Part shown: positions 3,302-25,465 of the stretch, one piece after another
How the letters are laid out: each line of letters begins with the position of its first letter
How positions within the stretch are numbered: position 1 is the stretch's first letter
Virus record (IMG/VR): IMGVR_UViG_3300013285_000047
Location: 1-33,005 of that record
From: a virus
Strand: one strand, 5' to 3'
Length of the DNA stretch: 33,005 nucleotides
Position numbers and translations under genes: made by a program
The notes under the pieces: generated by a model
Told to the model about the DNA's origin: nothing
What the model saw: the letters and a program-made list of their open reading frames with translations, nothing else
Database searches by the model: none

Positions 3302-3719
3302 AATCAGCGTGATAATGGGGCTTGTTTCGCGTTCATCGGTATTAGGCAAAATCCAACGGCTACGCATCAAGGGTTTGATACCCAAGCAAGACGACGAAGC
3401 GCGCAACACCAAGGCTTACGTGGCCCCAAGGATTTACGTTCGGCCCAGGGTGTTTAAGCCCAGGCCCGCACTACCACCCCAACCCGCGCCAGAACCTACG
3501 GGCCTCTTTTCTGTAACATTGGCGGATTTGCGCCCGAACCAATGTAAATACATTGAGGGAGATTACGCGGCCAATGATATGGGCGCGGCCCTTATGTGCG
3601 GGGAAGCCACGAACGGAAAAATCTATTGCCCGCATCACCACGCGCTTTCGCACTACGCGATGCCCCCGGCTCGTCAAAAAGGGTTTAACCGTGTAGCCCT
3701 TCATTGGGCCTCGCGCTGA
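3186..3719 (+). CDS. gcrA: GcrA-family cell-cycle transcription regulator
   Basis: The 177-residue product has GcrA architecture. Residues 18-63 form the N-terminal helix-turn-helix region (WSQTETKQLLALWKQ, ATEISVIMG, then SSVLGKIQRL). A basic, proline-rich linker spans about 78-105. The C-terminal domain begins TLADLRPNQCKYIEGD and carries Cys120, Cys138, Cys148 and the PHHH cluster. In Caulobacter, GcrA binds sigma70-RNA polymerase at promoters with CcrM-methylated GANTC sites. A phage copy could redirect this circuit to phage genes or shift the host cycle. The start is TTG 3186: GAAGGGA lies just upstream and an in-frame stop at 3162 excludes earlier starts. The 3' end overlaps the convergent helicase gene by 19 bases. 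Confidence 0.82.
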   Translation: MKPKLARRTETGTPKPSAWSQTETKQLLALWKQKKTATEISVIMGLVSRSSVLGKIQRLRIKGLIPKQDDEARNTKAYVAPRIYVRPRVFKPRPALPPQPAPEPTGLFSVTLADLRPNQCKYIEGDYAANDMGAALMCGEATNGKIYCPHHHALSHYAMPPARQKGFNRVALHWASR

Positions 3720-5602
3720 ACTAAAGCCCAGGCCGACCCGCCCAACAATCTAATCAAGCGGGCGGCTTGGAGCTTCTTTAGCGCCTCGCGCAATCCCTTT
3801 TGAGCCGACTTACGGTTTTCGCTCAGGGATATAACCGCCGCCTGCAATTCCAATTCAGTCTTAGGACCATCGTACAGGGCCTGCATAACCGCGCCGTCGT
3901 ATTTTGACGACCTACCGGCATTTCCAGAGGCAACCCTGGAACATTCCGCCACAAGGCTGGAAACTTCCTCGTCATCCTCATCCACGCCCAACACAATATG
4001 GTGCATATCAAAATGCAGATCGTCGATCTTATCCGCGTCCTTTTGCTTAACCACGGATATACGCGCAACGCGCTCGTCGCCTTCTGGCCGGAATACGCCC
4101 AAGATATAATCAAGGTTGCCGATCAGGGCCGACGAACCACGCGGACGTTCCGCGACCGTATGCCCGCTGTGATGCACGATCATCACAGACGTGTTGAATT
4201 CGGCCCGCAATTCCGTGTTGATCGACCGTAGGTAGGCCGAAATGTCGGAACTATCGTTCTCAACGCCTGAGAACGTTTGCGCCAAGGTATCAATTACCAC
4301 CAGAAGGGGTTTCACTGGCATTTTGGCTATGCTGTTGCGCAAAACCTCCATGCTGTGTTCTTCAGACAAAATCAGCGGGGTTATGCAGACGAAAACATTC
4401 TTAGTTCGCTCAAGGTTGTGGTGCAGATGCCAAGCCTGGACCCGGCGGAATATGCCAGCACCGCCTTCAGCCGCGACAATCAACACTGCGCCTTCTTCCG
4501 TGCGCCTGCCGGCCCAGTCCATGCCGTGCGCGATATGCAGGGCCAGATCGAGCGAGATAAATGATTTGTACGTACCGGACCCGCCGAACAACATTCCCAT
4601 GCTATCGCGGGGCACCAGCCCCTTAACCAGCCAATTAACGTTCAAGGTTCTGGCCTCCAATTCGTCCAAGGTAAGAACGACGCTTTCGCCATCGCCCGGC
4701 TTATCCGGCGCGTATTTCTCCGCGCCTTTTACCATACGCTGTAGATCGTGACCAAAACGGGCCTGCCAGCGGTCCAACTCCGGGCCTTCCTCCGGCTTAA
4801 TTGCCATCATCAGGCTGCGGACCATGCCTAGCGCGCCATCTGGCGTCATGCCCTTGGCAACCATCGCCGCCGTGATCTTTAACAGCGGATCGTGATAGCT
4901 GCGTTCGGACAGATCGGGGTTTATCAGCAGCTTGAAGGCTTCCACGCCATCCATGCTGGTGTTGCCAAACTTGACCTCTTGGACGGGTGGGCTTTTGGCC
5001 CAGGCTTTCGCCTCATCCAGATCAACGCCAAACGCCGCAGCGGCATCTTCAAGGGTGTAAACGAAATCACCGTCATAGCTAAATAGGGAGCAGGTGAAAT
5101 TGTCGGCCTTCTTCTTGGTGTTGTGGCCCGTTGGCAAGCGGCCGTAGCGGACGGGATTGTTGCCGCTAGGGTCAACCTTCACCAAGCCCTTATGGGCCAT
5201 GTAAGATAACAGAATGTCAATCAGCGGGCCGTTTGTCGTGTTTTCGTCCGTGGGATCAAGGAATATGCCGACCTGATATTTTCCCTTGCTGGTTTCCAGA
5301 ATGTAGCTGGCCGTGCCGGCAACGTCTTCCGGGTCAATGTCATCCGCCAACAGCACCGCCAGCCGCTTAAACATACTCTTGACCCGGCGGGGGGCCACAT
5401 CGGTGTTCATCACGCCAACGGAGAAAAAGTTATTATTCTGCGGATGGCTATCAACGTGCATACGCTGCGTGGTCTTGGCCTGCCACACCTGACCGCCCCA
5501 TAAGGCTTCAGGGCCAAGGGGGTCGCCGATAAATGATGTGACCCAGCCAAAGTCGCCGGCCAGCTCACCGTAGGCGGCAAGCAAGAATTCTGAGTTTTTC
5601 AT
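3701..5602 (-). CDS. Primase-helicase: prim-pol-like domain fused to RepA/AAA_25 ATPase
   Basis: The 633-residue protein begins with a region resembling RepB/prim-pol primases: acidic pair LADDID (85-90), ETSKGKYQ (103-110) and RYGRLPTGHNTK (152-163). A RecA-fold ATPase of the RepA/AAA_25 type follows, with Walker A GGSGTYKS (340-347), in which Tyr replaces the usual Gly before Lys as in several family members, Walker B LLVVIDTL (433-440) and VHHSGH (476-481). The C-terminal 70 residues look like a winged helix. The inferred role is priming and unwinding at the phage origin. It lies 21 bases after the HTH gene, with AAGG before its ATG, and runs opposite to both flanking replication-type operons. 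Confidence 0.82.
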   Translation of the reverse strand: MKNSEFLLAAYGELAGDFGWVTSFIGDPLGPEALWGGQVWQAKTTQRMHVDSHPQNNNFFSVGVMNTDVAPRRVKSMFKRLAVLLADDIDPEDVAGTASYILETSKGKYQVGIFLDPTDENTTNGPLIDILLSYMAHKGLVKVDPSGNNPVRYGRLPTGHNTKKKADNFTCSLFSYDGDFVYTLEDAAAAFGVDLDEAKAWAKSPPVQEVKFGNTSMDGVEAFKLLINPDLSERSYHDPLLKITAAMVAKGMTPDGALGMVRSLMMAIKPEEGPELDRWQARFGHDLQRMVKGAEKYAPDKPGDGESVVLTLDELEARTLNVNWLVKGLVPRDSMGMLFGGSGTYKSFISLDLALHIAHGMDWAGRRTEEGAVLIVAAEGGAGIFRRVQAWHLHHNLERTKNVFVCITPLILSEEHSMEVLRNSIAKMPVKPLLVVIDTLAQTFSGVENDSSDISAYLRSINTELRAEFNTSVMIVHHSGHTVAERPRGSSALIGNLDYILGVFRPEGDERVARISVVKQKDADKIDDLHFDMHHIVLGVDEDDEEVSSLVAECSRVASGNAGRSSKYDGAVMQALYDGPKTELELQAAVISLSENRKSAQKGLREALKKLQAARLIRLLGGSAWALVQREAQ

Positions 5603-7115: not shown

Positions 7116-7583
7116 ATGGCCGACTTCGACTTCAACCCCTCCGAATACGTTGACACCAAAACCTCAACCTTTGACCCCCTGCCTAACGGCACCTATAGCG
7201 CCATGATTTCCAACTCCGACTACAAGGCCACCAAGGCTGGCACCGGCCACTATATCGAGCTGGTGATCGACATCATTGATGGCCCGCACGCCGGCAGGAA
7301 GCTGTGGGAGCGCCTGAACGTCGATAACCCCAACAAGCAAGCCGAAGACATTGCCCGCAGCGCGCTTAACCGCCTTCTTGTGTCCTGCGGCCAACCCGAC
7401 GCCCGCAACACCGAAGCCATCCACGACATTGCGTTTAAGATGGATGTGGAGATCGACCGCAAAGACCCTACCAGAAACCGCATCGCGGGTTATTGGCCTA
7501 CATCTAGGCAAACGGCTAAGGCCCCGGTTGCGAACCAAGACGCAACGTTCAATTCCGGCCCCAAGAAGCCCTGGGAGCGGTAA
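7116..7583 (+). CDS. DUF669-type single-stranded DNA-binding protein
   Basis: The 155-residue product begins with MADFDFNPSEYVD and continues with PLPNGTYSAMISNSDYKAT and a beta-rich core, the layout of phage DUF669 proteins, which act as SSB partners of Sak4 or RecT-like proteins. It follows the ATPase gene by four bases. It ends in a basic GPKKPWER and lacks the acidic DDDIPF-type tip that lets bacterial SSBs recruit partners. An acidic tip is found instead at the end of the next gene. The stop overlaps the next start as TAATG. Confidence 0.8.
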   Translation: MADFDFNPSEYVDTKTSTFDPLPNGTYSAMISNSDYKATKAGTGHYIELVIDIIDGPHAGRKLWERLNVDNPNKQAEDIARSALNRLLVSCGQPDARNTEAIHDIAFKMDVEIDRKDPTRNRIAGYWPTSRQTAKAPVANQDATFNSGPKKPWER

Positions 7584-8545
7584 TGCCACAAGTGCCCGAT
7601 TCGACTCACACGACTACGGCGGCTGTTTTCGATTGGTATGTTAGCCAAACCGACGACTTCCGTGACCACATGGGTGCGAGCCTTATCGGGCACCATTGTG
7701 ACCGCTATATCTGGCTCAGCTTCCATTGGGCTGTCAGGCCGAACTTCATTGGTCGCATCAAGCGGCTATTCGGCACCGGCAAAAGGGAAGAAAGCCGGGT
7801 CTACGAGGAATTGCGCGCCATTGGCGTCGATTTGCATACGGAAGATGATGGCAAGCAGATCGAATGTCGCGATGACAGCGGCCACTTCGGTGGTTCCGTC
7901 GATGGCGTTGGCACGGGCTTTCCAGAAGCCCCAAAGGCTTGGGCCGTGCTGGAAGTCAAGACAATGGGCGACAAGGCTTATGGCGATTTAGTTAAGAACA
8001 AGGTGAAGATCGCCAAGCCGCAACATTACGCCCAGATGCAAACCTACATGGGCCTGATGGGTTTGGACCGTGCGCTCTATTTCGCGGTAAATAAAAATAC
8101 CGACGAAATCCACACAGAATGGGTGCATTTCGACACGGAAGCGTATGCCAAGATTACCGAACGCAAAGGCCGCCTGATTGCGGCTAAGACCCCGCCCATT
8201 AAGATCAGCGACGACCCGTCTTATTGGCTTTGCAAAATGTGCGACATGTACAAGTTTTGCCACCAAGGCGAGGTGCCAGAAACCAACTGCCGGACCTGCA
8301 CCTCAGCGGTGCCGATGCCGGGCGGAACATGGCGTTGCACGTACCATGATAGGGGCATTACGGGCGATGAACAGCGCGTTGGTTGCGCTGCTCATACACA
8401 CTTGCTCGTAGCGCCTCCAGAACGCCCCCAGACGGCCCCGCCGGCCAAAGCTATGGCTAGGGTCCGGTATGTTAAACCTGCCGCCAGGACGCCCAAGGAG
8501 CAATACCTGGGGCCAGTGCCTTTTGATGACATTATTCCGTTTTAG
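7583..8545 (+). CDS. Cas4/RecB-like PD-(D/E)XK nuclease with SSB-type C-terminal tip
   Basis: The 320-residue protein has a nuclease core with Asp107 in GSVDGVG, the ELVK-type LEVKT (Glu124, Lys126) and a QHYAQMQTY segment (147-155). Cys39 plus Cys217, Cys220 and Cys226 fit the iron-sulphur cluster of Cas4/AddB-type nucleases. A second Cys/His set (236, 239, 252, 268) suggests an added zinc knuckle. The last residues, VPFDDIIPF, resemble the SSB acidic tip, after a flexible basic linker. It likely resects DNA ends to feed the annealing proteins upstream. It is followed after nine bases by the gene with a capsid-like segment. Confidence 0.8.
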   Translation: MPQVPDSTHTTTAAVFDWYVSQTDDFRDHMGASLIGHHCDRYIWLSFHWAVRPNFIGRIKRLFGTGKREESRVYEELRAIGVDLHTEDDGKQIECRDDSGHFGGSVDGVGTGFPEAPKAWAVLEVKTMGDKAYGDLVKNKVKIAKPQHYAQMQTYMGLMGLDRALYFAVNKNTDEIHTEWVHFDTEAYAKITERKGRLIAAKTPPIKISDDPSYWLCKMCDMYKFCHQGEVPETNCRTCTSAVPMPGGTWRCTYHDRGITGDEQRVGCAAHTHLLVAPPERPQTAPPAKAMARVRYVKPAARTPKEQYLGPVPFDDIIPF

Positions 8546-8554
8546 GAGCAACCA

Positions 8555-8809
8555 ATGACCAACGTAATTAAGAAAGCCAAAAGCGTTTGGCATTATGTAA
8601 AATATGTTTTTTTGGGCATCCGCACAAATGCCAAGCCCAAAAAGCCAGTTGTTTCCCAACGCGCCGAAGACCCAAGCCCACGCTTTAAAAACTCTTCAAT
8701 TGCGGACATTATCCAAACCAACATTGAGTTTAGGTCGGCCAACGCGGATTCGACCGTAACCAGCAACGCGGATTTATTGCGTCGGCTAAAAGAACGTCAA
8801 GCAAAATGA
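8555..8809 (+). CDS. 84-aa early protein carrying a copy of the major capsid N-arm
   Basis: AGGAG lies just before the ATG and the stop overlaps the next start as ATGA, so the gene looks real. Residues 1-33 are basic with an aromatic/hydrophobic patch (VWHYVKYVFLGI). Residues 44-81 align without gaps to residues 3-40 of the capsid protein encoded at 23493-24494, with 23 of 38 identical, including NSSI, DII, TNI and LLRRLK. The codons differ widely, so this is not a recent copy. No further capsid domain is present. It may bind capsid subunits, scaffold or another capsid-arm partner. Function is unknown, and its expression with recombination genes rather than structural genes is odd. Confidence 0.78.
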   Translation: MTNVIKKAKSVWHYVKYVFLGIRTNAKPKKPVVSQRAEDPSPRFKNSSIADIIQTNIEFRSANADSTVTSNADLLRRLKERQAK

Positions 8810-9141
8810 CTGGCAGGATGGCCCGCAACAAGGGCGCTCGTGGCGAAAACGAGCTCGCCGCGATCCTAAGCGACGAGCTTGGGACCGTGGTTAAGCGCAA
8901 GCTGGGGCAGGCGCGTAACGGCGAGGATGACATTGAGATCGGTAAGTTCCGTATCGAGGTCAAGCGCCGTGAAACGCTGGCCGTCATGGCTTGGGTGCGG
9001 CAGATCGAGGCCTGCACGCCCAAGACCCAGGTGCCGCTGGTTGTGTTTCGGCAGAATAACCAAGAATGGCGGGTGATTATCCGCTTGAAAGACTTAATCC
9101 CCATGATGCGCGAGGAATTATGCGATGTACGTGAAGATTGA
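8806..9141 (+). CDS. PD-(D/E)XK nuclease, Holliday-junction-resolvase-like
   Basis: The 111-residue protein has a small endonuclease fold pattern: Glu14 in GARGENELAAIL, the acidic GEDDIEIGKF (Asp41/42), and IEVKRRE giving Glu51-x-Lys53. This fits Hjc-like or VRR-NUC-like phage nucleases that resolve recombination or replication intermediates. It starts in an ATGA overlap with the capsid-arm gene and overlaps the next gene by 17 bases. A second ATG at 8818 is possible. Confidence 0.75.
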   Translation: MTGRMARNKGARGENELAAILSDELGTVVKRKLGQARNGEDDIEIGKFRIEVKRRETLAVMAWVRQIEACTPKTQVPLVVFRQNNQEWRVIIRLKDLIPMMREELCDVRED

Positions 9142-12491: not shown

Positions 12492-14015
12492 TCATTGGCC
12501 GTTTCCTTGCAATTGCGAACTAGCAATACGAGCAATCAGTTTATTCGCTTCAGGTGATTGGCTTATACCGGCAATTTTAAGTATTTGTGCCAACTTAACC
12601 GCTTTTCCGGCTGCTAGGGAAGCCCCGTATGTCGTGGACCCCATTATGCGGGGGGACGTAAGCACGCCTAGCGATGCCATCTTTGCAAGAGGGACTCCAT
12701 GGCCGGCTAAAACACCAACGGCCTCAGCGGTGCCGACTGGCGTTCCGCCCGCCGTCCAAGGTTTAAGGGCCATACCGGCTAAGGCTGGTTTAATTTCAGT
12801 GTCGGCCGGCCCCGCAAGCTGGTCAAGCATACTAGCCCGCGCCTCTCCAGCGCCGGGGGAGGCCTTCATGGCCGATAAAAGTTTTGATATTTGCGTAGCG
12901 GTATTGGCCTTATTGTTAAGGCTTAATCCGCCTCTAATGTTTTGAAGGGCTTTTGTTGAGTCGCTGTAATCCTTCATTACACTAGCATAATCAGGAGCCG
13001 CGTCAGTTATCGCGCCCTCTACAGCATCATAAACCCCGTCTGCGGCGCGAAAAGCCTTTGTTCCGGGCTCGTATTTTGACCGTATATTTCCAACCGCTAA
13101 TTTAAGGTCGTTTAAATCGCCGGGCGTATTCCAGCCCTTTTTTGCATAATTGCCGACTTCAGCGGTTATATCCCTCAAAGCCGCCGCCGCCGCAGGATCG
13201 ACAATTTGCCCCCTTAACCCAAAGGCCGTGCTTTGGTTATCTTTGATAGCTTGCGTTATTGGGTCAAAAGGCACGGCCTGCGTGTCGGTTGAAATGGGCG
13301 CAATGTTTGTTTGATAATTGGCGTTTCTAGCGTCATATTTTGCCGAAAGGTTTTTTTCCACTTTTGGCAAAATGTCTTCAGGGACAATCGAGCCCGTTTG
13401 CCCGCCTTTAAAATTAGCTGCGGCTTGGGTTTCCGTTCCCAAACCTTTGTTAAATCCGGCGGATGCGGCCTGCTCAAAGGCAGGCGCCCCTTTCCCAGTA
13501 AGGGTTCCCAAAACGCCCGGAGCGGCCTTGGAAATTCCCCTTACGAGGGGAGCGGCGGCAACGCCTATAAGTGGCCCACCCAATTCCCCCACAGCACCCT
13601 CGACAAGGTCTTGAACCGCAGACTTCCAAGCCGGCTGAGTGGGTTGGAAACCAGGGTCTTTGTGGTGGTTAATGAGATTGGAAATAAGGTCATAAACCTG
13701 ACCTCCCGCACCATAACCAAGCGTTCCGCCCGCCATAGCTGTTGCAACGCCAGCAGGAAGGCCAAAGCCGGCGGTAGCGGCAGTTTCACCCACGCCCAGC
13801 GCGGCGCCACCAGCGCCGCCTAGGATACCACCCAGGCCCTTTGCGGCTGAACGCAGGAACGGTTCGTGGCCTATGCCTTTTTTGCCAACGACATCGACAG
13901 CAGAAACCGTGGTGTCGGGGGCGTTTAATTTAGCCAAAATTGCGGGGTCGGTTACGGGCGTCCCACTAGATGAATTAAGTTGGGCAAGAATCGCGGGATC
14001 GGTAACGAGAGGCAT
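12492..14015 (-). CDS. Ejection-type internal virion protein, 507 aa
   Basis: The N-terminus contains a duplicated motif (VTDPAILAQLN and VTDPAILAKLN) seen at the start of other phage injection proteins. It is followed by a long Gly/Ala-rich amphipathic region (about 58-110, GLGGILGGAGGAALG) that could enter a membrane, then a mostly helical body. It occupies the place of P22 gp16-type ejection proteins: last of three large proteins between tail hub and tail fibre. The likely role is passage of DNA through the envelope. No lytic transglycosylase motif is seen. The start overlaps the previous stop as TAATG. Confidence 0.62.
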   Translation of the reverse strand: MPLVTDPAILAQLNSSSGTPVTDPAILAKLNAPDTTVSAVDVVGKKGIGHEPFLRSAAKGLGGILGGAGGAALGVGETAATAGFGLPAGVATAMAGGTLGYGAGGQVYDLISNLINHHKDPGFQPTQPAWKSAVQDLVEGAVGELGGPLIGVAAAPLVRGISKAAPGVLGTLTGKGAPAFEQAASAGFNKGLGTETQAAANFKGGQTGSIVPEDILPKVEKNLSAKYDARNANYQTNIAPISTDTQAVPFDPITQAIKDNQSTAFGLRGQIVDPAAAAALRDITAEVGNYAKKGWNTPGDLNDLKLAVGNIRSKYEPGTKAFRAADGVYDAVEGAITDAAPDYASVMKDYSDSTKALQNIRGGLSLNNKANTATQISKLLSAMKASPGAGEARASMLDQLAGPADTEIKPALAGMALKPWTAGGTPVGTAEAVGVLAGHGVPLAKMASLGVLTSPRIMGSTTYGASLAAGKAVKLAQILKIAGISQSPEANKLIARIASSQLQGNGQ

Positions 14016-16024
14016 TATTTATGCTCCCATCCGTTAGGTGTTTTTGTGTATGTTACGCCGTCAATTGTTTTTGTAACTGGTGCGGCGGCTGAAAGCGTCT
14101 TTTGGCCCATGCTCCGCATGGTGGCCCCGGAATCATTTTTAGTTTCAAGGGCGGAAACATCGGTCGGCGTCCACGGAACCGAATTTTGTAATTTGGTTTT
14201 AGCTTTAAGCAAAACAGCGGTTTGGGCGGGTGTGATATACGGATTTGACAATGCAACTTCAATCGCATTTTCGCCTTGTTGACGAAATTCGGCCATTTGA
14301 CGAAGTGCCGTTAGGCGAGATTGCCCCGCTTGCGGAAGCAATGCATCGTAGCTAGACGAAACATCTTTATTGACTTGCATACCGCCCGTTGCCAAGCCGC
14401 CAAAAGCCCGCGAAAGCCCAGCGCCGGTAGTCCGAATATCTTGCGCCTCTTGAGGCGTGAGCTTGCGCTTAAGCGCCCCTAAGGACGTGTTAGCAGCTTG
14501 TGAGAACCATGCCCCTTGAGAGCCGGACGGAAGCTTGGACAAGTTTTCCAAGCCTGTAGCCGCATCAGCGGCGTTAGTCATGGTTCGTGACAACCCGATT
14601 AAAGCCCTAGAGCCGCCGTTGGGGAGGACGCGAAGGCCGGTGGGGTCAACGGGCTTGCCTTGCATATCGACATAGCCGCCGGTTTTTTTATTGAACATAG
14701 CGGATATTTGAACGGGCTCACCGTTAACAACGTGTTCGATTGTCGTTGGCGGCATCAAAGTTTCACGATTAAATTCTGCTTTAGAAAGGGCAAGTTTAGC
14801 CCCCGAAATCCCGACTTCCTGCTTTCTTAGTGCAACGTTCTGATCTTCGGTCATCATTGTGTGACCGTTAATGAGAATCTTAGCATCGCCGGTCTGGTCG
14901 TTAATTTGGGCGACCGAGCCCGGAGGTATCCCGCTCGCTTGCATCTCAGCAGGCGTCGCCCAGTGCTCGTGAGGCTTGAGGGTATTTTGAGCAATCACGG
15001 TGAAATACTCTTTTGCACCGTCTGGGTTTGAACTCGTAAGCGCGCGCATAGTCGCCCTAACTTCAGGGGTGACGCCCGTTAGGGTGTCAATTGCCTTACT
15101 GATCGAGGCTATGTTGGCTTGTTGTTGGTTGTCCGCCGCTTCGGCTTTCAGCTTTTCAGTGGTCAACGTGTCAATTTGTTTGCGCGCATCGACAATCATC
15201 GGCACAAGCTGCGCCCTTTGTGTGGGGCCAATTTGCGGGCTAGTTGCAACGATTTGGAGTCGCGCCAATTTGGCTTGAGCTTGGCTCAGAGGGTCGCTGT
15301 AAACATTTAATGGCGCGGTAGCTGGAAGCGGCATAGGTGGTTGCGGCATGGGCGGCGCGCTTGCCGGGGGCGTGGCTTGGGGCGGAGGCGCGTTACCCTG
15401 AAGGGCTTGGACCAAGTCGGCATTTTGAGAAGCCGCTTGCGGGTCCATTGGATTGTCTGCCACGGGCGGCGCGCTTGCCGGGGGCATGGCTTGGGGCGGA
15501 GGCGCGTTACCTTGGACCAAGCCGGCATTTTGAGAAGCCGCTTGCGGGCCCATTGGATTGTCTGCCACGGGCGGGGGTATTGGGGCGGGCGGCGGTGGGC
15601 CGGCATCAGACGGCGCTGCGCCACCCATAGCCAAGACGGAAGCTAATTGCGAGCCTGCATTTTCAGGCGGCGCATTGGGGGCGCTCATCGCATTTATAGC
15701 CCCTGGACCGGGGGGGGCGGGCGGCGGTGGGCCGGCATTAAGCGCATCCATCATATTGGATTGGGCCAACGCTTCGGCCCTTGCCTGCCCCTCAAGGGCG
15801 CGCTTCTGCATGACGTTTCCGCCGTAACCTTCAAGCGCTTTAGCCAAAACCGCAGTCCACGGGATCGGGGCCTGGATGCCTTTATACGATTGAATATCAA
15901 GCGGGGCATCACTTTGCGCTTGTAAGGCTTCGGCCATCTTTTGCTGATAAGCGGCTTGGGCAAGCTGCTGATCGTAAGACTGCGGGGCCTTGGGGGTAAA
16001 AAGGTTTGCAATTGAATTCATCAT
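14015..16024 (-). CDS. Large internal virion (ejection-type) protein with proline-rich repeats, 669 aa
   Basis: Residues 1-100 are helical and Gln/Ala-rich. Residues about 98-240 are low-complexity Pro/Ala-rich, including poly-proline runs and a tandem duplication built around VADNPM and PQAASQNA. The remainder is helical, with AKLARLQIVA near 250 and a long middle helix region. It matches phage internal or ejection proteins by position and composition, the second of three. The proline-rich spacer is probably an extended, flexible link. Two adjacent ATG codons (16024, 16021) can start it; the ribosome site is weak. Confidence 0.6.
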   Translation of the reverse strand: MMNSIANLFTPKAPQSYDQQLAQAAYQQKMAEALQAQSDAPLDIQSYKGIQAPIPWTAVLAKALEGYGGNVMQKRALEGQARAEALAQSNMMDALNAGPPPPAPPGPGAINAMSAPNAPPENAGSQLASVLAMGGAAPSDAGPPPPAPIPPPVADNPMGPQAASQNAGLVQGNAPPPQAMPPASAPPVADNPMDPQAASQNADLVQALQGNAPPPQATPPASAPPMPQPPMPLPATAPLNVYSDPLSQAQAKLARLQIVATSPQIGPTQRAQLVPMIVDARKQIDTLTTEKLKAEAADNQQQANIASISKAIDTLTGVTPEVRATMRALTSSNPDGAKEYFTVIAQNTLKPHEHWATPAEMQASGIPPGSVAQINDQTGDAKILINGHTMMTEDQNVALRKQEVGISGAKLALSKAEFNRETLMPPTTIEHVVNGEPVQISAMFNKKTGGYVDMQGKPVDPTGLRVLPNGGSRALIGLSRTMTNAADAATGLENLSKLPSGSQGAWFSQAANTSLGALKRKLTPQEAQDIRTTGAGLSRAFGGLATGGMQVNKDVSSSYDALLPQAGQSRLTALRQMAEFRQQGENAIEVALSNPYITPAQTAVLLKAKTKLQNSVPWTPTDVSALETKNDSGATMRSMGQKTLSAAAPVTKTIDGVTYTKTPNGWEHK
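15350..15568 (-). repeat. Tandem duplication of about 105-114 bp in the proline-rich region
   Basis: Copy one (15350-15463, 114 bp) and copy two (15464-15568, 105 bp) are nearly identical; the difference is a 9-base in-frame indel plus scattered substitutions. They encode two consecutive Pro/Ala/Gln-rich repeats. A smaller repeat (GGCGGTGGGCCGGCAT) recurs at about 15591 and 15723. The region is GC-rich and probably prone to slippage. Confidence 0.8.
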
Positions 16025-20923: not shown

Positions 20924-22891
20924 TTAATGTCCTTTTATCTTAACGAACCATGTGAAGTTGTCGCCTAGTTCTAGTTCTAGTCCATTTGCCGCGACAAACT
21001 CGTCCACAGCACGTTTGACTCCCCACTGGGGAAAATCAACATTATCATAATCGTGGCCGCAAAGTAATCCACCAGGGCGAACCTTACCAGCCCATGCCGC
21101 AATGTCAGCTTGACAGCCATCATAGCTATGGTCGGCGTCAATAAAAATAAAGTCCAAATCGCTTTGAACGTCGTTAGCCGCATCCACGGATTTCATCCTA
21201 TGGATGATTGCGCGGGCTCCAAAGTTGGAAACGGCACATTTTGTAATTGCCATAAAGTCTTCCTGGGATTCATCGCTAAGCGTGGCGTGGTAATCTCCAG
21301 ACGCTTCTAGGCTGGGCTCATAGTCGCCCCATGAATCAACCATATGCAATGTCATTTCCGACCGAGAAGCCAATAGGCGCTCAGATAACTGACCAGCAAA
21401 AACACCAATCTCCACACCCGTAACAGGACCAGCGGGGATACGAGCCAATATCTCACGCGCCCTGGCGTCAACCGCGCTTTCAGGTACACCTATTCTGGCT
21501 ATTTGGCATAGCAAGCCATCGCCGGCGACGGTGATCGTTCCGGTAAATCGTTGGGCGTATTCAATAAAGTCTTGGGCCTGCCCAATCATCCAGGGGGCGC
21601 ACTTAAACGTCCGGTCGCCGTAAATTAGGTCCATGACCGGATCGCCGTTATTCCATTCTTGCAGATACGCATGATGATTGCCATTATCGTAGCAGCTATC
21701 AATGCCAAGCAAGTGCATGATGCGACAACCGCCCAGCTCAGCCAGTATCATGGCCTTCAGGGCCACCGTCGTGCCTGCGCCTAGCAAGTGCACCGGACGT
21801 TCGACTTCGCCCTCTAGCAGCTTCTCAACGCCTTCTGACTGGCAATGAAACAGGGTTACGTTGTAGCCCTCTAGGGCGTCAAAGATGGCCGGGTCGCATT
21901 GGGACGCAATGAAGTACCGGATCGACTTCTGGGGCGTGGAAACAAACGCTAGGTTCTCAATGCGTGCATCTAGGATGACATGCACATCAGGGGTAAGGCC
22001 GTGGTCGATAAGGTAGTTGCAAACACCGTTTAGCGCCCAAATTTCTTGGCCGTAACCCCGGCGCTTACGCAATGTGTCTAGCTCAAATTTTAATGATGGC
22101 CCGCCGCCGACAATGCAGACTTGTTGGTCGTGGGTTTGCCAATTGAAATCAAACCATTTCAAATCGCGGCTACAGGCCGACTTGATGTTGTCGTGGATAA
22201 GATCGGTTGCGGTATTGCAGACCGTATCAAGCTCTGCGCGAGTTATGCCGCCTTCTTTCCAAACCATAGGAACCCACCCATCCAACACTTCATGCGGACG
22301 CGGGTTACCGTGGAACACAACGACTGCGGCTTTATCGGGGGCCGATCCGCCGGAAACCTTGTAGCTTACAAAGGTATTGGGCAGTATGTCCTGCCAGATG
22401 TCAGGCGCTCCGTGAAATGCCTGTTCGATCCACGATTGATCGCCGCCCAAGATGCGGGGCATCCCAGCGCGTTCCCAATCGCGCCAAAAAGATTCCGTGG
22501 CCCTAGAAACGCGCCAAGCCATGATGGACGATTGCAGGCCTTCTGCGCGGTAGAAGTCGCGCAGGATGGCAAACTCTCCGGTGTAATTAGCCACCGCGTC
22601 TAGGCGTCCCGCCAACACGGTATCAAGGTCCAGATAAAGAACGCGGTCATCCCAATTAAATACGCCGGGCTTGAATAGGGCTAATTTGTTCCACCAACCG
22701 TCTAGGCCGGGGTGCGGCAAATCACGGACTTCAATTTCGTGTCCATAGTCGCCGGGGGTGTCTGTGAAGACAATGAACTTGCCGGCATAGCCTTCAGGCA
22801 GGTTGCGGCGGATCATATCGTTTAGATTGCGGACGTACTCGACGCCCCGGCCAAGGTAATTACCCGCATTAACACAAACGACGTTTAGCAT
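20924..22891 (-). CDS. Three-domain fusion: glycosyltransferase, DUF115, methyltransferase
   Basis: Residues 1-210 look like a GT8-type glycosyltransferase: DLDTV (88-92) as the metal-binding DxD, GGDQSW (149-154) and VVFHGNP (191-197). Residues about 235-470 look like DUF115 (the MptE/Maf-like fold), with CIVGGGPSL (259-267) and LLGIDSCY (394-401). Residues about 485-655 form a class I methyltransferase: GVEIGVFAG (492-500), FIFIDADHSYDG (581-592) and GHDYD (612-616). The inferred role is adding a sugar, perhaps methylated, to a virion or surface component. The gene interrupts the structural block and follows a terminator, so it may have its own promoter or rely on read-through. Substrates cannot be told from sequence. 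Confidence 0.78.
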   Translation of the reverse strand: MLNVVCVNAGNYLGRGVEYVRNLNDMIRRNLPEGYAGKFIVFTDTPGDYGHEIEVRDLPHPGLDGWWNKLALFKPGVFNWDDRVLYLDLDTVLAGRLDAVANYTGEFAILRDFYRAEGLQSSIMAWRVSRATESFWRDWERAGMPRILGGDQSWIEQAFHGAPDIWQDILPNTFVSYKVSGGSAPDKAAVVVFHGNPRPHEVLDGWVPMVWKEGGITRAELDTVCNTATDLIHDNIKSACSRDLKWFDFNWQTHDQQVCIVGGGPSLKFELDTLRKRRGYGQEIWALNGVCNYLIDHGLTPDVHVILDARIENLAFVSTPQKSIRYFIASQCDPAIFDALEGYNVTLFHCQSEGVEKLLEGEVERPVHLLGAGTTVALKAMILAELGGCRIMHLLGIDSCYDNGNHHAYLQEWNNGDPVMDLIYGDRTFKCAPWMIGQAQDFIEYAQRFTGTITVAGDGLLCQIARIGVPESAVDARAREILARIPAGPVTGVEIGVFAGQLSERLLASRSEMTLHMVDSWGDYEPSLEASGDYHATLSDESQEDFMAITKCAVSNFGARAIIHRMKSVDAANDVQSDLDFIFIDADHSYDGCQADIAAWAGKVRPGGLLCGHDYDNVDFPQWGVKRAVDEFVAANGLELELGDNFTWFVKIKGH

Positions 22892-23492: not shown

Positions 23493-24494
23493 TTAAGCGA
23501 TCAAAACGCCTTGGAACTGCGCGCCCGAGCAGGTCAAGTTACCCGCCCAGCCGATCAGTTTCACAATGGCGTCTTGGTTAACCGATTGGCGCTCACCGCC
23601 AACAGGAACAAAGTTGCGATCCACATGGGGCCGGAACATCAAGTATTTGGTGTTCAGGAAGAACATATGGTTAGCGGTAGCGGCAGCGCCGATACCACCG
23701 TCAAGCACAACGTCGGAAGCCATACCAGCGCCATAATACTTCAGGGCGGCAAAGCCAGCGCCAGCCATCGACGAACCGGAGTCCGAGATGCGTTGGATGG
23801 ATTGCAGCGACTGAAGGTACAGGCGGTAGTAGTTATTGTCAGCCACGATCAGGTCGGGCTTATCGGTGCCACGGATCAACTGGACGGCCAGGGCATCCAT
23901 GTATTGTTGGATGTTCGAAGCAGTCGTAGCCGATCCACCGTTCGTCAGGCCCGAGTAGGCAACGGATTGCCAGAACGTGAATGACGCGCGGTTAATGCCG
24001 CCGTAAGTGCCGGTGGTCGGTACATCAGGAACAGCAGCGCCCAGGCCGGTAAGGTTCTTACCGCTGTTGCCGGTGCCGTCGAGGTACAGATCGCCGCTGA
24101 TGCGGTTGGCAATTTGCGCTTCGGCAACCATCATGCGACCGTCAAGCAGGTCAATGATGGCTTCCTTGCCCGAGTTCTGGATCATTTCCAGGCCCGAGAT
24201 TGTAACCGCAGAAGCGTATTGCGTGATGGAGAACTGAGCCGCCGAGATCGGCGAGTTCTGGGACACGTTCAGCACTTCGTAACCGGAGTAGCTGTTCGTG
24301 TTGTTGGTGGTGGCGTCATTGTACATGATTTCTTGCAAAATCACGTTACCGCCGGAGAACGTTTTAACGTTGCCCCGGTCCTTTAGGCGACGAAGCAACG
24401 CATTGTTGTTCGTCACGTTGTCGGCCAGCTCACCACTACGGCTTTGGATATTCGTCGCAATGATGTCGCTGATCGAGCTGTTGGCGAAAGCCAT
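23493..24494 (-). CDS. Major capsid protein (HK97-fold podophage type)
   Basis: The 333-residue protein matches a recurrent podophage capsid family. The N-arm (residues 3-43) carries NSSISDIIATNI and LLRRLKDRG, then SGGNVILQEIMY, TISGLEMIQNSG (98-109) and ISGDLYLDGTGN (133-144), and the C-terminal region ends FQGVLIA. It likely self-assembles on the scaffold encoded just upstream. AAAGGG precedes the ATG. The N-arm is repeated in the early gene at 8555-8809. The 333-residue length leaves no obvious extra insertion domain. Confidence 0.88.
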   Translation of the reverse strand: MAFANSSISDIIATNIQSRSGELADNVTNNNALLRRLKDRGNVKTFSGGNVILQEIMYNDATTNNTNSYSGYEVLNVSQNSPISAAQFSITQYASAVTISGLEMIQNSGKEAIIDLLDGRMMVAEAQIANRISGDLYLDGTGNSGKNLTGLGAAVPDVPTTGTYGGINRASFTFWQSVAYSGLTNGGSATTASNIQQYMDALAVQLIRGTDKPDLIVADNNYYRLYLQSLQSIQRISDSGSSMAGAGFAALKYYGAGMASDVVLDGGIGAAATANHMFFLNTKYLMFRPHVDRNFVPVGGERQSVNQDAIVKLIGWAGNLTCSGAQFQGVLIA

Positions 24495-24514: not shown

Positions 24515-25465
24515 CTAAAGGCGGTCGTTAATGCTGTTGAATTGTTCAGACAGCATCGACCGCCTATCTTGCGCTTTGGTAGCCGTCGCAGCTCCGGGTG
24601 TGGAGCTTCTAACACTTACCGCTGCTACCTTAGCGGCTTTCGCCGCCCTGTTGGCCGCTGACTTTCTTTCAGTTTCCGCTTCGGCTTGTCGGCTCTGCTG
24701 AGACTGTTCAAAAAGATCATCGTTAAGGCGTATCGCTTTTTCATAAGCGTCTTCCAGCGTAGTCGCCACGCCGCTCTGTAGGAGCTGAATCATGGTCGGC
24801 CTTGCGTCCTCAAAATACTCTGCCGTCTGAGAGAAATTGTTGATCTCACTCATTAGCGTCTGGTTTTGAGCTTCTTCCTGCTGTTGTTTATAACCTACAA
24901 TTTCTCCGCGAACATTGTTCAGTTCGTTCTGTAGATTGTAAATCATCGGATCAACCGGACCCCCAGCAGGAGGGTAGTATTCCGATCCGTCCAAAGTTAT
25001 GCCGTACTGCTGAGCCAGTTGGATCATGTACGCTCGTTTTTGATCTGGCGCTGCGGTCCTAAGAACATGGTCCGCTTGCATCAAGGCTTGCACGGCTTGC
25101 GCCGGCTCAACGCCTAGACCGCGAATGGTGTTCTCGTAGGGCTGCATGGCTTGCTGCATTTGGTCAGCAAATTGCGCCTTAGCCCGTAAGGGCTCGATTC
25201 CGGTGCGGGTTTCTTCATCCCGTTGCCAGATGTATTCCCGCAGCTTGGGGTCAACGGCCTGCCAGGGCTCGTGGTATTCACGTTTCCAGCTTGATGGCGG
25301 CTTGGCCCAGGCGGGCGGTTCTTCAGCTTCTTCTTCTGGTTCTTGAGGCGCTGCCGGGCGGTCTTCCCTGGCGGTTTCTATTTCCTCAAACTGCTGCATT
25401 AGCAGTTCTTTGCGGTCAATTGTGTCTTCGGTATCTACGATTTGATCTTGGGTATCCACGATCAT
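24515..25465 (-). CDS. Scaffolding protein
   Basis: The 316-residue protein is highly charged and helical, acidic and Pro/Glu-rich at residues 30-55, with a conserved-looking WAKPPSSWKREYHEPWQAVD segment (51-70) and long Gln-rich helices after that, ending in a basic part (AANRAAKAAKVAAV) and a helical tail. It lies directly before the capsid gene, the standard place for scaffold. It would direct procapsid assembly and leave afterwards. It starts in an ATGA overlap with the preceding gene. Confidence 0.8.
   Translation of the reverse strand: MIVDTQDQIVDTEDTIDRKELLMQQFEEIETAREDRPAAPQEPEEEAEEPPAWAKPPSSWKREYHEPWQAVDPKLREYIWQRDEETRTGIEPLRAKAQFADQMQQAMQPYENTIRGLGVEPAQAVQALMQADHVLRTAAPDQKRAYMIQLAQQYGITLDGSEYYPPAGGPVDPMIYNLQNELNNVRGEIVGYKQQQEEAQNQTLMSEINNFSQTAEYFEDARPTMIQLLQSGVATTLEDAYEKAIRLNDDLFEQSQQSRQAEAETERKSAANRAAKAAKVAAVSVRSSTPGAATATKAQDRRSMLSEQFNSINDRL

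Follow-up and report, generated by a model that had tools for sequence, protein, structure and literature searches.

The window analysed here is the entire 33,005-nucleotide stretch of the IMG/VR virus record IMGVR_UViG_3300013285_000047. Its recombination operon contains a small gene, located between an exonuclease gene and a resolvase-like gene, that encodes a protein of 84 amino acids. The C-terminal part of this small protein closely resembles the N-terminal arm of the major capsid protein (MCP) of the same phage. The observation holds up and is out of the ordinary: a free-standing copy of the phage's own capsid arm is kept under selection in an early operon. The initial annotation of this DNA had placed the gene in the recombination operon and had noted a ribosome site and coupling to the next gene. 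The flanking genes agree with this placement, an AGGAG ribosome site precedes the start codon, and the stop codon of the small gene overlaps the ATG (8806) of the next gene, a coupling seen in all three carriers of the small gene (Table 1).

Residues 44–81 of the small protein align without gaps with residues 3–40 of the MCP, and 23 of these 38 residues are identical. This match, reported in the initial annotation, was reproduced when the alignment was repeated. The BLOSUM62 raw score is 104, and the maximum among 20,000 shuffled sequences was 62 (Gumbel p ~1e-10), which speaks against chance similarity. A search of the genome with the small protein gave the MCP segment as the sole other match in the window (E 2.4e-9), and an independent self comparison of all open reading frames (ORFs) of the window recovered the same pair (E 2.6e-9). 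The full MCP matches phrog_9953, a family of Mx8-type MCPs, at 2.6e-104. Its relatives include those of Myxococcus phage Mx8, Mx9, Stenotrophomonas BUCT555 and others, and the relatives encoded in genomes are located on contigs of metagenome-assembled genomes of mixed phyla. The small protein has the homologous arm segment of this family but is not a full-length HK97-type MCP (84 amino acids versus about 320–340). It matches nothing in Pfam or PHROG even at E<=10, in agreement with the earlier statement that the rest of the capsid protein is absent. These comparisons indicate that the arm-like segment is truly homologous to the capsid arm of the clade of the window phage.

Because the DNA identity of the two arm segments is 57 of 114 nucleotides (50%), and because identical residues share a codon in 5 of 23 cases versus 7.6 expected from codon usage, the arm copy is old; the difference in codons had been noticed before. 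Two relatives of the small protein were found in IMG/VR, one 85% identical in a 31.6-kb record (L003), whose MCP is 97% identical to that of the window, and the other 48% identical in a 7.4-kb contig without an MCP (L206). The same novel N-terminus and the arm segment align in all three members, so that no relative lacking the arm-like segment, a case that the initial annotation had considered, was seen among them. An intact ORF, the ribosome site and the ATGA overlap with the next gene are likewise present in all three. Between the window and L206, synonymous divergence (dS) is about 2, which is near saturation, and the ratio of nonsynonymous to synonymous divergence (dN/dS) is 0.185 for the whole gene and 0.175 for the arm. 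Between the window and L003, dN/dS is 0.41 overall, 0.27 in the arm and 0.57 in the N-terminal part. These values show that the small gene encodes a selected protein rather than a relic, kept by purifying selection, and they bear out the long maintenance at the protein level that had been proposed (dN/dS ~0.18, the silent sites being almost saturated). IMG/VR was scanned with the protein, with the alignment and with a degenerate DNA pattern; this gave no members beyond these two relatives, and none were found in GTDB genomes. A tblastn search of INPHARED gave one weak partial match (E 0.8) for the window protein and none for the L206 protein, and whole-record searches of 100 related records otherwise turned up nothing but MCP arms and, in one record, a short end repeat.

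On sequence grounds, the arm copy derives from the window's own MCP clade: it carries the near-clade states NSS, TN and LLRRLK, which are missing from Mx8-type outgroup MCPs, and the small proteins keep NSS, TN, RR and K38 of the window MCP clade. All three members share the derived states A50, E58 and Q82, where near-clade MCPs have S, Q and G, and therefore one capture gave rise to all of them. Dating by ancestral states from E58 was dropped, since outgroup MCPs show both E and Q. The kept residues form two blocks, F-x-NSSI-x-DII-x-TNI..R (MCP 3–19) and LLRRLK-x-R (MCP 33–40). The ADNVTxNNA stretch between them, which is near-invariant across MCPs, is replaced by NADSTVTSNAD, NADSTITSNAD or ENERPPMSKNE in the three small proteins. 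None of the 13 positions in MCP 20–32 is kept in all three members versus 19 of 25 outside (~5e-6, hypergeometric calculated by hand), a contrast that was picked after looking at the data. Over all 38 positions, kept positions show no overall trend with MCP conservation (p = 1). The pattern D-[NAS]-[VI]-[TS] served as anchor for the MCPs in this comparison, so that conservation in the anchored columns is overestimated; in an alignment made without the anchoring pattern (A3), A24, D25, N26, V27, N30 and N31 are also invariant in MCPs. Across 64 MCPs, the mean column identity score of arm residues 3–40 is 0.96. The loss of ADNVTxNNA argues, at the level of sequence, against the idea that the small protein can replace the arm in all its functions. 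The retention of clade-specific residues with the loss of a capsid-wide stretch is as expected if selection maintains a clade-specific partner surface and not the capsid lattice.

The AlphaFold2 (AF2) model of the small protein contains helices at residues 3–19, 49–63 and 71–83 and is interrupted where the degenerate linker lies. Confidence is modest, with a predicted local distance difference test score (pLDDT) of about 80 over much of helices 49–63 and 71–83. Because the predicted template modelling score (pTM) is 0.29, the helices alone were used. The N-terminal helix has a charge of +5/+6, a marginal hydrophobic moment (shuffle p 0.04–0.08) and a mean hydrophobicity of about zero, and insertion of this helix into the membrane was rejected on the last ground. 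The basic character proposed for the N-terminus is thus retained, but the hydrophobic patch is too weak for a membrane segment.

Table 1 Features of the small gene, its neighbours and the capsid genes of the window
Feature	Position	Strand	Basis or remark
Small protein of 84 amino acids with capsid-arm-like segment (P0001)	8555..8809	+	ATG start
AGGAG ribosome site	8544..8548	+	6 nt 5' of small-gene ATG; overlaps stop of upstream exonuclease gene; sequence, junctions compared
Basic N-terminal helix, residues 3–19	8561..8611	+	Conserved K7, K9, V11, W12, Y14, K16, V18, F19; no known family; alignment and AF2 (pLDDT ~65)
Capsid-arm-like segment, residues 44–81	8684..8797	+	Sequence comparison
Retained block 1 (FxNSSIADIIxTNIExR), equivalent to MCP 3–19	8684..8734	+	Alignment; AF2 helix 49–63
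Degenerate linker, equivalent to MCP 20–32 (SGELADNVTNNNA)	8735..8773	+	SGELADNVTNNNA conserved in MCPs, not in small protein
Retained block 2 (LLRRLKER), equivalent to MCP 33–40	8774..8797	+	Alignment; AF2 helix 71–83
Downstream coupled gene, PDDEXK_15 / RusA-like resolvase	8806..9141	+	ATGA overlap with small gene
Upstream gene, Cas4-domain / RecE-like exonuclease (phrog_1990)	7583..8545	+	PHROG match
MCP of Mx8 type (phrog_9953); family from which the arm derives	23493..24494	-	PHROG match
MCP residues 3–40, N-terminal arm matched by small protein	24375..24488	-	Alignment
Putative scaffolding protein, 316 amino acids, candidate arm partner	24515..25465	-	Just upstream of MCP; role suggested by position and composition

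The putative scaffolding protein has a conserved C-terminal tail, AQDRRSMLxEQF, and no family match in Pfam or PHROG searches. The product of the downstream gene (8806–9141) is RusA-like according to PHROGs, yet its Pfam match is PDDEXK_15, which casts doubt on the name RusA; another RusA-like gene is found at 657–1292. Elsewhere in the window, a helicase/primase-like gene (3701–5602) is located on the minus strand amid plus-strand early genes. Between the capsid and tail genes, a minus-strand gene (20924–22891) encodes a 655-amino-acid protein whose N-terminal part has a glycosyltransferase-type match (phrog_1962) and whose C-terminal part matches phrog_2675, a family called DNA methyltransferase; this is odd within a structural operon. 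The tail-region ORF at 14015–16024 contains repeated peptide units (15243–15605, minus strand) that are 100% identical over 11–20 amino acids in a self comparison.

The small gene occupies a variable cargo slot. It is present in 3 of 48 records in which the exonuclease and RusA-like genes are both visible; these genes are adjacent in about 15 of the 48, and the rest hold other cargo, as counted by hand. In L117, the flanking genes are 95–98% identical to those of the window and the slot is filled by an unrelated ORF of 120 amino acids. In L206, the ATG of the small gene directly follows the end of the upstream gene and the GAGGCAAC leader, both of which precede the RusA-like ATG in L205, and the end of the small gene overlaps the ATG of the RusA-like gene. 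This arrangement indicates that the slot is filled by whole coupled ORFs. The GC content at third codon positions (GC3) is 0.49–0.51 for the small gene in all three members versus 0.64–0.73 in the neighbouring genes and the MCP gene, which is typical of an accessory gene. The slot (8545–8806) is also variable in L117, L119, L121, L140, L158, L173, L204–L208, L214 and L216. Its contents include a PAPS-reductase-like gene (L208), a dATP/dGTP diphosphohydrolase-like gene (L216), small ORFs that look by eye like coiled-coil and zinc/HNH proteins (L119 and L121), or nothing. Cargo starts frequently reuse the leader and the ATGAC start of the downstream gene.

In the procapsids of P22 and SPP1, the scaffold makes contact with the N-terminal arm of the MCP, which is helical and rearranges at maturation (PMC9965877, PMC6813328). 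A free arm would presumably encounter this partner as well. The internal proteins of T4 are variable and mostly anti-defence proteins, and their only common feature is a capsid-targeting sequence (PMC3012670). Docking of the small protein onto the capsid-assembly machinery is, in our analysis, an evenly balanced proposition and the better supported part of the model; it is favoured by the arm homology, the conservation of both halves in a three-member family with derived residues of its own, the low dN/dS, the retained clade-specific residues and the predicted arm helices. During assembly, the arm module would bind the partner of the real arm, for which the likeliest candidates are the scaffolding protein and an adjacent capsid subunit of the procapsid. 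Such docking would attach the small protein to the procapsid under assembly or carry it inside, perhaps with nucleic acid bound to the basic helix, so that it would act as a targeted internal protein. In the preferred form of this model, the purpose of the small protein is to be delivered into the procapsid; taken by itself, this form is less likely than not. The fuller description, in which a small accessory early protein consists of an old MCP-arm copy in two helical blocks, joined to an unrelated basic helix, and docks on assembly, is favoured with somewhat less than even confidence. It is decidedly improbable that the small protein is an adaptor of a kind not described before, in which the basic helix would contact the early DNA replication/recombination machinery or replicated DNA and the captured arm would provide a physical link to procapsid assembly.

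Several observations weigh against docking on assembly. Arm profiles run against 40,714 locus ORFs, together with a scan of IMG/VR by degenerate pattern, found no tag-bearing proteins beyond the small-protein family and the MCPs, and the small gene itself has been found in three phages only. The arm-like tag is C-terminal in the small protein, while the MCP arm has a free N-terminus, and the lost ADNVTxNNA could belong to the binding surface. The AF2 model of the MCP is poor (pLDDT 35), and the arm was assigned by position and homology, not by structure. The expectation that the segment would track the capsid arm of its own genome finds no support among the three members. The MCP arms (residues 3–40) of the window and L003 have no amino-acid differences, whereas the arm segments of the two small proteins are not identical; the L206 contig has no MCP, and the best-scoring MCPs for the small-protein arm belong to other phages.

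The main rival explanation is that the small protein modulates assembly, the free arm competing for the scaffold or neighbouring subunits and thereby delaying or limiting early procapsid assembly of its own phage or of co-infecting related phages. This would mirror CpmB of SaPI1, which copies the capsid-binding end of the scaffold, and both CpmB (PMC5644958) and p22 of Ty1 (PMC4599808) provide precedents. The retained arm helices and the early operon position fit a modulator, and one mimic would reach many relatives because near MCP arms are almost identical. However, the producing phage would be hit equally, no integrase was found among the ORFs scanned and hence no sign of a prophage stage, during which one-sided inhibition would pay, and the small protein has no similarity to the putative scaffold in the window self comparison (E<=0.01). 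A modulator is unlikely, though worth serious consideration. A rather improbable alternative is an anti-defence decoy that occupies a host sensor of the capsid N-terminal region before the real capsid protein appears. Capsid-sensing defences are known, such as CapRel SJ46 and the Gol peptide with Lit (PMC9712102), and early expression, the variable slot and the low GC3 look accessory. However, the escape changes for CapRel SJ46 lie around MCP residues 111–124, outside the arm; this MCP arm is not the target of any known sensor, and a mimic could trigger a sensor instead of blocking it.

The arm-like module may instead have been repurposed for an unrelated partner away from capsid assembly, such as a DNA-processing complex, the membrane or itself. 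The neighbouring recombination genes and the coupling to a resolvase-like gene are consistent with this, but the kept residues specific to the MCP clade are hard to explain unless the MCP also meets that partner. Such repurposing has a low probability. A decayed or neutral duplicate of the start of the MCP gene, fused to a random ORF and without present function, is very improbable. The gene is rare and low in GC, and its arm linker is degenerate; however, dN/dS is low with silent sites near saturation, the ORF, ribosome site and coupling are intact in every member, and both halves are conserved.

The nearest known kinds to the small protein are satellite capsid-interface mimics and retroelement capsid fragments, and it departs from each family in a feature that was tested. 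CpmB, the SaPI1 protein that redirects the capsid size of 80alpha, is also small, and its C-terminal part copies one half of the phage capsid–scaffold interface, for which it competes (PMC5644958). In contrast to CpmB, which is encoded by a satellite and copies the scaffold C-terminus, the small protein is encoded by the phage itself and copies the capsid arm; its C-terminus has no match to the putative scaffold at E<=0.01. Like the T4 internal proteins (IPI and relatives), it is an accessory protein of a variable locus with an assembly-derived tag (PMC3012670). However, the T4 tag occurs on several different proteins, whereas one family carries the segment homologous to the MCP arm here, and the ORF and pattern scans found no unrelated phage proteins that share it. 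Ccm of SaPIbov5 is another additional gene homologous to a phage capsid protein and alters assembly (PMC8569155), but Ccm is a whole HK97-fold MCP homologue, whereas the small protein has the first ~40 residues only. The p22/p18 proteins of Ty1 are capsid (Gag) fragments encoded by the element itself and are trans-dominant (PMC4599808, PMC8458377). Unlike p22, which arises from an internal start in the same gene, the small protein has a gene of its own. This gene has diverged, silent sites included, encodes an N-terminal half that is new and lies about 15 kb away on the other strand. The Mx8-type MCPs share the arm segment, of which they are the source, and the small protein lacks their HK97 core and near-invariant ADNVTxNNA. 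No exact precedent for a phage-encoded free-standing copy of its own capsid arm was found in the literature searched, most subscription journals being outside its scope.

Copies of one side of the capsid–scaffold interface are already known from satellites (CpmB and Ccm) and, in the form of Ty1 p22, from retroelements. If a phage keeps its own capsid arm under selection as a free-standing copy in an early operon, this would supply the side of the interface that was lacking and point to a docking module that is short and separable. From the block pattern, in which two helices are kept and an invariant linker is lost, direct predictions follow about binding and about the role of the N-terminal arm in Mx8-type capsids.
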